In this document: in pieces, positions 10,319 to 28,023 of the stretch
Numbering within the stretch: position 1 is the first letter of the stretch
Layout: each line of letters begins with the position of its first letter
From: Bacteroidota bacterium
GTDB taxonomy: Bacteria; Bacteroidota; Bacteroidia; Sphingobacteriales; Sphingobacteriaceae
Reading direction: 5' to 3'
DNA length: 41,736 nt
NCBI GenBank assembly: GCA_030830805.1
Contig: JAURMH010000072.1
Coordinates: 1 to 41,736, forward strand
The notes under the pieces: model-generated
What the model saw: the letters and a program-made list of their open reading frames with translations, nothing else
The model's database searches: none
Told to the model about the DNA's origin: nothing
Made by a program: the position numbers and the translations under genes

Positions 10319-12199
10319 TTAATCGTAGAAATTCCAAAGCAAGCCAAGCTTAAATGTTCTAGGGGCAATTGGATAATTAGATACCATCATTTCGCCATAA
10401 CTATTTAATAAATTATTGGCGTGTTCTAATTTAAATAGCAATACCGCGCGTTTCAATTTTGCGGTCACAAAAACATCTACTATAGGAAAGCCTCCTAAAT
10501 TTTTGGTGCCTAAATGAAACATCATGTTAGCTGGCGAATATGCATAAGCTTGATAGGCCGAATAATATCGTGTATCTAAACCCGCTCTTAGTTTTAAAGC
10601 CGCTTTAAATATTGGCAATTGCACATAGGTAGAATTATATATATGAAAGCTAGGCTGAGGCAATATTTGTTGATTCGAGCTTTGTTGTAAATAAATATAA
10701 TTATCAAAATGTAAGGCGCGCCAAGTTATTTGCTTTGAAAAACAAATAGTATTTAAACTGATATTACTTGACAGTTGCTGAGGCGCAAATTGCGTATCAA
10801 AATAAACATAATTGGAAATCTGTTGATGCATAAATTTTATACTGGCGGCGATAGATTTAATATCGAGCTGCAAGTAAGCCTTTTGATTTTGAACAGAGAC
10901 AAATTGATTGGCCCATTGATAATGATTGTTATGGGCCTGAAGTGCATTAAAAACAGGGCTTTGGCTCGAAGTACTGAAACCCAATTTTGCAATAAGTTTA
11001 CTTTGAAACAAATTGTAAGTCAAAACAGAATGGAAAAAATAATTTGATTTAAAAATACCTGCAAAAATATAATCGGCACTAGCTGTATAAGTTATTTTAG
11101 GCGCTAGCTGAAATTCCGAGGTAGCAATTAGGTGATGCTCAGAAAGTGTGGTATCAAAATTATTGTTTTGAAAAAGCACCAATTGATTTTTCAAACTAAT
11201 AGTAAAACTCTTTAATTGGCTTTTTGCTAAATGCTCCTGATTATAATACTCATAGCTTAGCAAGGAAGAAAACTTTTTTAATTGTGTGTAATCGGCTGTG
11301 CGCGTAGTATCTATGTATGCATTGGCATAATACCCAGAATCTATTTTACTTTCATTAAAATTAATCACCTTGTTGAGGTAATTAAAGGCGTGGGAAAACC
11401 GGTACTTATTTTCCACTTTGTCGATAGAGATTGAATCTAAACTTAGCTTATAGGTTTTTCCGAAAGCATAACTTTGTTTGAAATAGATTTCGGTTTGTCT
11501 TAATTGATTGCTTGCTGCACTTAATTTAACTGGCTCAAATAGCGGATCGTATATAGGATTTGAATTAAAAACAGAATCGCTTTTTACACCTCCATTTTCC
11601 TTAGCAGTTAAATTATTTGACATGGCTGCAAACCAAAATTTATAGCGATTATTTTTAGAAGTATACCAAATAGAGGCATCTAAATTTAAGTGGTCAGTTT
11701 TTTGCAACTGATAGTCGCCGACAGAAACTAGCCTGGTATAATTAACCGCGTAGTTTAATCGAGGTGAAATATTTTGTGCAAATGTAAAAGCAAATAGCTG
11801 TTCTTGTTTTCTATTCCAAAAATATTTAAGCTGTGTATAAGGAGAGGCCGTTCGATAATACTTTATTTTTTCTGCAGATGTTAAATAATGATTGAAAGCA
11901 GACCAACCCTCTTGAAAGCCAATTAGATCAGTGTTTTCAAAAAATAGCGGTTGAGTTGCAGTACCTAAATTTCCTAAATTAAGAAAAGGTATATTTTGGG
12001 TTGAAGCAGGATGAAAATTTTGAAAGCCAATATAATTGGTATCAATAGATTCAAAAAAAAGGGTGTCTGCTGTTTGGGCCGAAAGCGTTATAAAACGAAC
12101 TGTATTTGGACCGTATTTATTTACACTATCAATTCCAACGGCAACACCCCATTTGCTAATTAAAATAAAAAGTAAAATGCTGTAAATTTTTTTTGTCAT
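10319..12199 (-). CDS. Putative porin / outer-membrane beta-barrel protein (Porin_10-like)
   Basis: Signal peptide, many alternating aromatic/polar beta strands, C-terminal FKLGLLWNFYD ending. Confidence 0.65.
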   Translation of the reverse strand: MTKKIYSILLFILISKWGVAVGIDSVNKYGPNTVRFITLSAQTADTLFFESIDTNYIGFQNFHPASTQNIPFLNLGNLGTATQPLFFENTDLIGFQEGWSAFNHYLTSAEKIKYYRTASPYTQLKYFWNRKQEQLFAFTFAQNISPRLNYAVNYTRLVSVGDYQLQKTDHLNLDASIWYTSKNNRYKFWFAAMSNNLTAKENGGVKSDSVFNSNPIYDPLFEPVKLSAASNQLRQTEIYFKQSYAFGKTYKLSLDSISIDKVENKYRFSHAFNYLNKVINFNESKIDSGYYANAYIDTTRTADYTQLKKFSSLLSYEYYNQEHLAKSQLKSFTISLKNQLVLFQNNNFDTTLSEHHLIATSEFQLAPKITYTASADYIFAGIFKSNYFFHSVLTYNLFQSKLIAKLGFSTSSQSPVFNALQAHNNHYQWANQFVSVQNQKAYLQLDIKSIAASIKFMHQQISNYVYFDTQFAPQQLSSNISLNTICFSKQITWRALHFDNYIYLQQSSNQQILPQPSFHIYNSTYVQLPIFKAALKLRAGLDTRYYSAYQAYAYSPANMMFHLGTKNLGGFPIVDVFVTAKLKRAVLLFKLEHANNLLNSYGEMMVSNYPIAPRTFKLGLLWNFYD

Positions 12200-25393: not shown

Positions 25394-26386
25394 TTATTCT
25401 TCGTCTAATTTAAATTTCGAAAGGTTCATGCCGAAAGACAATCCTTTTGATTTTACTAACTCTTGAATTTCAGTCAATGATTTTTTACCAAAGTTTCTGA
25501 ATTTCAACATGTCAGCAACATCATAAGTTACTAAATCAGCCAAAGTGCGAATATCAGCAGCTTTCAAGCAATTCAATGCTCTTACCGATAAATCCATATC
25601 TACTAATTCAGTTTTAAGAATCTTACGCATGTGTAAAATTTCTTCGTCTACTTCATTTGTTTGCTCTTTCGCTTGCGTCTCTAACATGATACGCTCATCT
25701 GAGAACAACATAAAGTGTTGAATCAAAATTTTAGCTGCTTCTTTTAATGCTTCTTCTGGATGAATAGATCCATCAGTCGAAATATCAATGATCAGTTTTT
25801 CGTAATCTGTTTTTTGCTCTACACGGTAATTTTCAATGCTGTATTTAACATTTTTAATTGGTGTGTAAATTGAATCGATTGCGATTACACCTACATTGGC
25901 ATTTTCGTTTTTATTTTCTTCTGCAGCGATGTATCCTCTACCTTTTGAAACAGAAATTTCCATTTCTAAAGTAACACTTGGATTCATATTGCAAACAACC
26001 AATTCAGGATTTAAAACTGTAAAGTTGTTAGAAAACTTAGTGATGTCGCCTGCATTGAAAGCGTCTTGTCCTTTAATAACAACGAATATTTTTTCAGAGT
26101 CGCCGCTATCGCCAGTTTTTTTGAAACGTACTTGTTTCAAGTTAAGGATAATGTCTGTAACATCTTCTACTACACCTTTAATGGTAGAGAACTCATGAGA
26201 AACTCCTGAGAACTTTACTGATGTAATAGCGTAACCCTCAAGCGAAGAAAGTAAAATTCTTCTTAATGCATTACCGATAGTTATACCGAAACCTGGCTCC
26301 AATGGACGAAATTCAAACGATCCATCGAAATCTGTTGATTTCTGCATAATTACTCTATCCGGTTTTTGGAATGCTAATATTGCCAT
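25394..26386 (-). CDS. rpoA: DNA-directed RNA polymerase subunit alpha
   Basis: [28 protein letters not shown]-terminal [15 protein letters not shown]...[12 protein letters not shown]. Confidence 0.98.
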
Positions 26387-26460: not shown

Positions 26461-27069
26461 TTATTTAGAGTACAACTCGACAATTAATTGTTCTTTGATG
26501 TTCTCTGGAATATCCGCTCGATCAGGCATTGAAAGGAAAGTTCCTGACATTGCTGCACTATCAAATGCTAACCAAGTATACTTAGCTACTCTAGTAGTTG
26601 CTACTGCTTCGTTGATTGCTTCTAATGCTTTAGATTTTTCTCTAACAGAAACAACATCACCTGGACGCAAAGTGTACGATGGAATATTTACAATATCACC
26701 ATTCACTAAAACGTGCTTATGAGAAACTAATTGACGAGCTGCACGACGAGAACCTGCAATACCTAAACGATAAACAGTGTTATCTAAACGAGCTTCCAAA
26801 AATTTCAATAAGTTTTCACCGGTAATACCATGCTTACGATGTGCTTTTCCGAATAAGTTTTCGAACTGTTTTTCTAATACACCATAGATGTATTTAGCTT
26901 TTTGCTTTTCCATTAACTGGATAGCATATTCAGATTGCTTTCCACGTTTCTTAGACAAACCGTGTTGTCCTGGTGGATAATTTTTTCTTTCTAATGCTTT
27001 GTCTGGTCCGTAAATTGCTTCACGAAACTTACGAGCGATTTTCGATTTTGGTCCTGTGTATCTTGCCAT
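26461..27069 (-). CDS. rpsD: 30S ribosomal protein S4
   Basis: [46 protein letters not shown]. Confidence 0.98.
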
Positions 27070-27094
27070 TGTTTGTTGTTTTAGTTAATCTTAG

Positions 27095-27177
27095 CTGAAC
27101 ACCACCTCGGTGTTCAGTATAACTATATTATCTTTTTAAATAAACAAAATGTGATGTCCTTTCGAATACCACATTTT
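27095..27177 (-). ncRNA. Candidate structured leader RNA upstream of rpsD (two hairpins)
   Basis: 27095-27117 CTGAACACC-GAGGT-GGTGTTCAG (9-bp perfect stem); 27146-27177 AAAATGTGGT...ATCACATTTT (10-bp stem with one G-U). Confidence 0.5.
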
Positions 27178-27188
27178 ATTGTAATTAA

Positions 27189-27581
27189 TTATACTCTTCT
27201 CTTTTTCGGAGGACGACATCCATTATGTGGAAGTGGAGTGATGTCTTTGATAAGCGTCACTTCTATTCCAGAGTTTTGAATGGTGCGGATAGCCGACTCA
27301 CGTCCCGAACCTGGTCCTTTTACAAAAACCTCTACTTTTCTTAAGCCAAGATCATGTGCCGTTTTAGCACATTCGCCTGCTGCCATTTGGGCTGCATAAG
27401 GAGTGTTTTTCTTTGAACCTTTGAATCCCATTTTACCAGCAGATGCCCAAGAAATAACTTGACCTTGTGTGTTGGTTAATGAAATAATGATATTGTTAAA
27501 AGTAGCGCTAATGTGAGCTTCACCAATTGGTTCAACCACTACTACTCTTTTTTTAGTAACTTTTTTACCTGTCTTTGCCAT
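27189..27581 (-). CDS. rpsK: 30S ribosomal protein S11
   Basis: [41 protein letters not shown]. Confidence 0.98.
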
Positions 27582-27971: not shown

Positions 27972-28023
27972 TTGTTAATTTATATTTCTTAGCGACCTAT
28001 TTTATTTTTTTTCAATTAATGGA

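Follow-up and report, generated by a model that had tools for sequence, protein, structure and literature searches.

The question raised by this locus is what occupies the long gap between rpsK and rpsD in a ribosomal protein operon of a member of the Bacteroidota. The operon lies on the minus strand of the window, by which we mean the whole stretch of 41,736 nt that was analysed, and reads rpsM, rpsK, a 119-nt gap, rpsD and rpoA (Table 1). As an earlier note had pointed out, this gap is much longer than most in the operon; its neighbours measure 12 nt (rpsM-rpsK) and 74 nt (rpsD-rpoA). The same note described two hairpins within it and suggested that they might form a Bacteroidota leader RNA for ribosomal protein S4, or else a processing or attenuation element. 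In published descriptions (PMC7247131, PMC10931766) the E. coli S4 leader is a pseudoknot preceding rpsM, and that of Bacillus carries a GUAA mimic of rRNA. The text of Eckert and Weinberg (2020; PMC7247131) adds two S4 leaders, "Bacteroidia" and "Flavobacteria", which lie upstream of rpsD-rpoA-rplQ and are unlike one another.

Folded as mRNA (minus strand), the gap reaches -30.9 kcal/mol, against -15.0 kcal/mol for dinucleotide shuffles (z -5.2; 0 of 200 shuffles). Both hairpins are real on this strand and stand out when folded singly (Table 1). The one proximal to rpsD contains a perfect 9-bp stem, CUGAACACC-GAGGU-GGUGUUCAG, and the upstream one pairs AAAAUGUGGU...AUCACAUUUU over 10 bp, including one G-U pair. 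The notion that these are chance folds in an A+T-rich gap is refuted by the z score together with the conservation and compensatory change described below, and can be given practically no weight. The proximal structure is larger than its 9-bp stem. A further helix, UAGUUA/UAACUA, belongs to it, and a bulged core that is conserved separates this helix from the stem; these features, and the probable circular permutation discussed below, had escaped the earlier note.

Table 1. Features of the rpsK-rpsD region, in window coordinates
Feature	Position	Strand	Remarks
rpsK	27189-27581	-	upstream flank of gap
rpsK-rpsD gap	27070-27188	-	119 nt
Upstream hairpin, genus-specific	27143-27180	-	fold z -4.5
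Whole conserved structure, permuted S4-leader candidate (model R2)	27079-27127	-	R2; fold z -4.7
Outer (open) helix, 5' arm UAGUUA	27120-27125	-	pairs with 27082-27087
Core strand B, AUAC	27117-27120	-	identical in every collected canonical and permuted leader
Capped helix, 5' arm CUGAACACC	27109-27117	-	perfect 9 bp with 27095-27103
Hairpin loop GAGGU	27104-27108	-	differs between genera
Capped helix, 3' arm GGUGUUCAG	27095-27103	-	as 5' arm
Core strand A, GCUAAGAUU	27087-27095	-	predicted bulges C (27094) and AGAU (27088-27091)
Outer (open) helix, 3' arm UAACUA	27082-27087	-	pairing, fold
A-rich 12-nt spacer before rpsD start codon (27069-27067)	27070-27081	-	unpaired in fold; canonical-like spacing
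rpsD (ribosomal protein S4; presumed controlled gene and presumed ligand)	26461-27069	-	202-aa S4
rpoA	25394-26386	-	downstream of rpsD

No known RNA family was matched by this structure. A search of the whole window with Rfam 15 gave no gathering-level match, and around the gap only noise up to E 10. Membership in the Flavobacteria class (RF03141) or the Bacteroidia class (RF03139) was rejected, neither model matching in the window, and neither matched in 17 loci of the window's family and two Sphingobacterium loci (19 in all). Because the same search recovered RF03141 in three Flavobacteriaceae loci (L072, L073, L088) and RF03139 in two Bacteroidales loci (L082, L105), it is able to detect both families. 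Our comparison with these leaders rests on the Rfam models and the text of the paper (PMC7247131). RF03141 resembles the window element in being an internal-loop hairpin a few nucleotides before rpsD-rpoA-rplQ in Bacteroidota, with S4 as presumed ligand, but its core is GAUUAUCGAAGGA...CCUUAAUUCAUAAUC, other than that of the window. RF03139 shares the gene position and presumed ligand but has another sequence and structure. The leaders of the E. coli alpha operon and Bacillus rpsD share the regulator and the operon, and one relative (G122, below) has a copy at the rpsM position, but their structures are unrelated and have no Rfam match in the window. The element belongs to neither of the two published Bacteroidota classes and would be an addition to the S4 leaders described in that text.

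What the gap does hold can be read from its relatives. Most of their rpsK-rpsD gaps carry the pattern UUUAAAG-CUAAGAUUC-(variable stem)-GAUAC-UUUAAA, which we call the canonical leader; its layout is helix 1, core strand A, a capped helix 2, core strand B, and the other side of helix 1. A covariance model of this order, R1, was built from 27 sequences and matches 284 of 301 genomes of the family, nearly all in single copy. The distance from the leader to the start codon of S4, measured in 78 loci, is 10-17 nt with a median of 13. Across 72 distinct sequences 97.3% of cells are paired, and 8 of 15 pairs change on both sides, values that 0 of 500 shuffles reach; the signal collapses when the partners are slid by one column. 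RNAalifold offered an alternative helix register for the canonical form, resembling the base of 16S h18, which was dropped; the two-helix register was kept because it holds in both the canonical and the permuted form, while the pairs of the RNAalifold register break in the latter. Among 395 genomes drawn from the class, R1 matched in members of the Sphingobacteriaceae alone, this being the name we take for the family since named Sphingobacterium loci fall inside the canonical group in our tree. Judged from its sequences, the family has an S4-leader candidate of its own, apparently undescribed so far. Neither an S4 leader of Sphingobacteriaceae nor a permuted leader was found in the open-access literature searched.

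Two genomes carry the canonical leader twice. In G122 one copy precedes rpsD and the other immediately precedes rpsM, where the operon starts (locus L168, 396-444 and 1252-1300); in G279 (L183, L196) there are two copies with the same spacing. Natural doubling of this kind is rare and could help to test the ligand. In several other loci (L009, L014, L015, L020, L024, L028) the stretch before rpsM is taken up by short AATCGTAAATC-type repeats.

The gap of the window has no R1 match, and the canonical order (A, capped helix, B) scores 12.4 bits there at best. In the window's genus and in two further genomes, G027 and G028, which represent two sister genera, the place of the canonical leader is taken by AGUUAUAC-variable stem-AGCUAAGAUUAACU. 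The layout is now helix 2, B, a capped helix 1, A, helix 2, so that AUACU comes first, then a variable stem, then AGCUAAGAUU. When a weight matrix derived from canonical leaders only was applied in this swapped order, the core scored 26.7 bits, the maximum possible, in all three permuted genera. In 15,000 dinucleotide shuffles, 5,000 for each genus, this value was never reached, and elsewhere in the 41.7-kb window the score did not exceed 14.3 bits. As in the canonical leaders, AGCUAAGAUU and AUACU in the window lie opposite one another with a helix on either side, at 10-17 nt from rpsD. A model of the permuted order, R2, gives the window element 79.2 bits, a score for a member of its own training set. 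The permuted sample is small, with 7 distinct sequences from 3 genera, and L008 and L007 are likewise among the R2 training sequences. Across these 7 sequences both partners have changed in 5 pairs of the capped helix, more than in shuffles, and the inner four pairs of the outer helix are invariant. Covariation in the proximal hairpin, whose absence from relatives the earlier note would have counted against a leader, is therefore present in both forms.

Two other candidates in the window were set aside. The closest thing to a canonical leader elsewhere is a short palindrome at 10591-10611 (E 0.04, on both strands), which we took as noise, and a second copy before rpsM amounts to the word GCUAAGA without a hairpin. 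Upstream of rpsM, positions 27972-27997 (minus strand) read GGTCGCTAAGAAATATAAATTAACAA, a stretch that is kept in the genus, shares GCTAAGA with the leader core and has no hairpin.

The two forms share more than a general outline. In the permuted form the core strands, AGCUAAGAUU and AUACU, are at full consensus over 10 + 5 positions, and the consensus of strand A in the window is identical to that of 73 distinct canonical leaders. Even a T/G alternative within strand A recurs in both (8 of 73 canonical, 3 of 7 permuted). Minimum-energy folds give an identical bulged core in a canonical locus (L009) and in the window, with the strand order differing. Whichever form is considered, the open helix close to the AUG is A+U-rich and conserved in sequence, and the capped helix is variable. 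Pair 3 of helix 1, which all 73 canonical leaders have as A-U, becomes C-G or U-A when that helix is capped in the permuted form; at pair 4, A-U gives way to U-A or G-C; and at pair 2 of helix 2, the second from the core, C-G gives way to A-U. Both helices are supported, since each near-invariant helix varies with compensation in the other form or between forms; the core's own pairs are invariant and carry no covariation evidence. All permuted loci place the leader 13-17 nt before rpsD, in the same gap and with the same spacing as the canonical one. The best explanation of the window leader probably includes its being a circularly permuted form of the Sphingobacteriaceae rpsD leader.

Natural circular permutations have been listed for the hammerhead and twister ribozymes, 5S rRNA, group II introns and other stable RNAs (PMC10085705). 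The present pair resembles them in keeping one core while the 5' and 3' parts are swapped and a different helix is closed by a loop. The listed cases are ribozymes and stable RNAs, however, and that list names no protein-binding mRNA leader. We lean, with somewhat less assurance, toward the view that these are two circularly permuted forms of one ribosomal-protein leader, at the same gene and within one family, possibly the first among protein-binding mRNA leaders.

R2 matches 8 of the 301 family genomes, training sequences included: six from the window's genus, plus G027 and G028. None of the 301 has both forms, and R2 found no match in other families among the 395 genomes of the class. The 9 that remain are two genomes of another genus, g8, and seven assemblies that yielded no rpsD. 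Relatives of the window's S4, at 60-100% identity, are present in 58 of 60 genomes. In genus g8 (L021, L155, L171, L172) the rpsK-rpsD gap shrinks to about 27-30 nt, and a leader was found neither in it nor before rpsM. The genus appears to have lost the leader, and since it retains S4, control by the leader is dispensable, a point that tells somewhat against the role proposed below.

A tree of S13, S11, S4 and RpoA groups the permuted genomes in a single clade (support 100/99), whose sister group holds the canonical genomes and genus g8. A single change is therefore enough to account for the permuted form. The outgroups carry neither form, so that the change may have run either way, and no intermediate was seen. 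Such a permutation would result if a leader were duplicated in tandem and the outer halves were then lost. It is also conceivable, though on balance doubtful, that the two forms converged on a small S4-binding core from different starting hairpins. The core spans only about 13 nt, unrelated S4 leaders at the rpsD locus across Bacteroidota lineages indicate that turnover is common, and the topology of the tree, with sister groups, outgroups lacking both forms and nothing in between, is as convergence would have it. The 15 full-consensus positions, the shared T/G alternative in strand A, and the identity of gap and spacing argue against convergence, yet all such likenesses could be functional constraint. 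Were the forms convergent, they would still be one core in two topologies.

The sequences themselves show conservation, position, covariation, spacing and the mutual exclusion of the two forms among genomes. We infer that S4 is the ligand and that it represses at the translational level; on that footing the proximal structure is probably an S4-responsive, circularly permuted leader of rpsD-rpoA-rplQ. Its most likely role would be to let S4 bind the bulged core and repress translation of rpsD (and of rpoA and rplQ). The functional unit would be the two-strand bulged core, A = G-(C/A)-UA-AGA(U/G)-U and B = AUAC, flanked by two helices; most Sphingobacteriaceae have it as A, capped helix, B, and the window's clade as B, capped helix, A, with the loop on the other helix and the core unchanged. 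S4 in excess over 16S rRNA would bind the core and stabilise the weak, A+U-rich outer helix. Translation in Bacteroidota does not rely on Shine-Dalgarno pairing (PMC10931766), and the locked helix, ending 12 nt before the AUG, would hinder loading of the 30S subunit on an mRNA that lacks a Shine-Dalgarno sequence. With S4 scarce, the outer helix would open and rpsD would be translated.

A resemblance to 16S rRNA is no more than suggestive. In each of three Sphingobacteriaceae 16S rRNAs, strand A matches best at the h17/h18 junction, to AUAAG(G/C)AUC, which ranks first among about 1,520 positions; the site was first noticed by eye, and its pairing context differs. This junction belongs to the five-way junction bound by S4. 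Published S4 leaders occupy the rpsM and rpsD positions, according to the text of PMC7247131, and the positions seen here, before rpsD and, where doubled, before rpsM, match them and so fit S4 as ligand. S4 is assigned here from position only, and S11 is encoded just upstream, so one could imagine that S11, S13, RNA polymerase alpha or a general RNA-binding protein controls the element, acting only on rpsD. We regard this as unlikely: the leader follows rpsK and precedes rpsD, the doubled copy stands before rpsM, S4 is the known regulator both of this operon in E. coli and of B. subtilis rpsD, and four published, unrelated leaders at such positions have also been assigned to S4, by the same kind of reasoning.

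The upstream hairpin has a different history. It is kept in all six genomes of the window's genus and absent from other genera, and sister genera have unrelated structures in its place. It was rejected as part of the conserved leader, being absent outside the genus, and as a dispersed repeat, being single-copy in the genome. The earlier suggestion of a Bacteroidota S4 leader therefore survives for the proximal hairpin, where position, conservation, covariation and the rpsM copy in one genome favour it, and probably fails for the genus-restricted upstream one.

It is improbable that both hairpins serve transcript processing, stability or attenuation and have no particular protein as ligand. The upstream hairpin behaves as such structures are expected to, being lineage-specific and of variable kind. 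The proximal one keeps an unpaired core unchanged through two topologies, something that a pure stability hairpin does not need. Also against this reading, a terminator scan gave no match at either hairpin, and no T-run follows either. A processing or stability role fits the upstream hairpin better than the proximal one, and its best reading is probably that of a lineage-specific stability or processing element outside the S4 element. G027 (L007, L031) has a near-palindrome of about 90 nt, rich in TTAATATGTTAATG repeats, between rpsK and the leader, and the gap of G028 (L008) between rpsK and rpsD starts with a strong, terminator-like hairpin, TGAAGATG...CATCTTCA, and a T-run after it.

If the S4 reading is right, the Sphingobacteriaceae element would be a further S4 leader class for the Bacteroidota, one missing from Rfam 15, and its two forms would amount to a natural experiment with one core, one gene and two topologies. 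Comparing the two reduces the likely recognition element to some 13 nt, shows which helix parts are free to vary, and makes it possible to test directly whether S4 recognises an internal-loop motif in either strand order; if it does, the protein would read only the two-strand bulged core, whichever strand comes first. There is a practical side too: permuted relatives escape an ordinary covariance-model search, and by the canonical model the window's genus counts as leaderless.

The Bacteroidales may hold more of the same kind. Rfam gave no match on one Tidjanibacter locus, L078, which shares with a second, L090, the motif GUAAUUGGC(A/G)CG and, later, GGAUA near rpsD (gaps of 119 and 105 nt, respectively). 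To judge by sequence, this motif is possibly a further S4 leader class.
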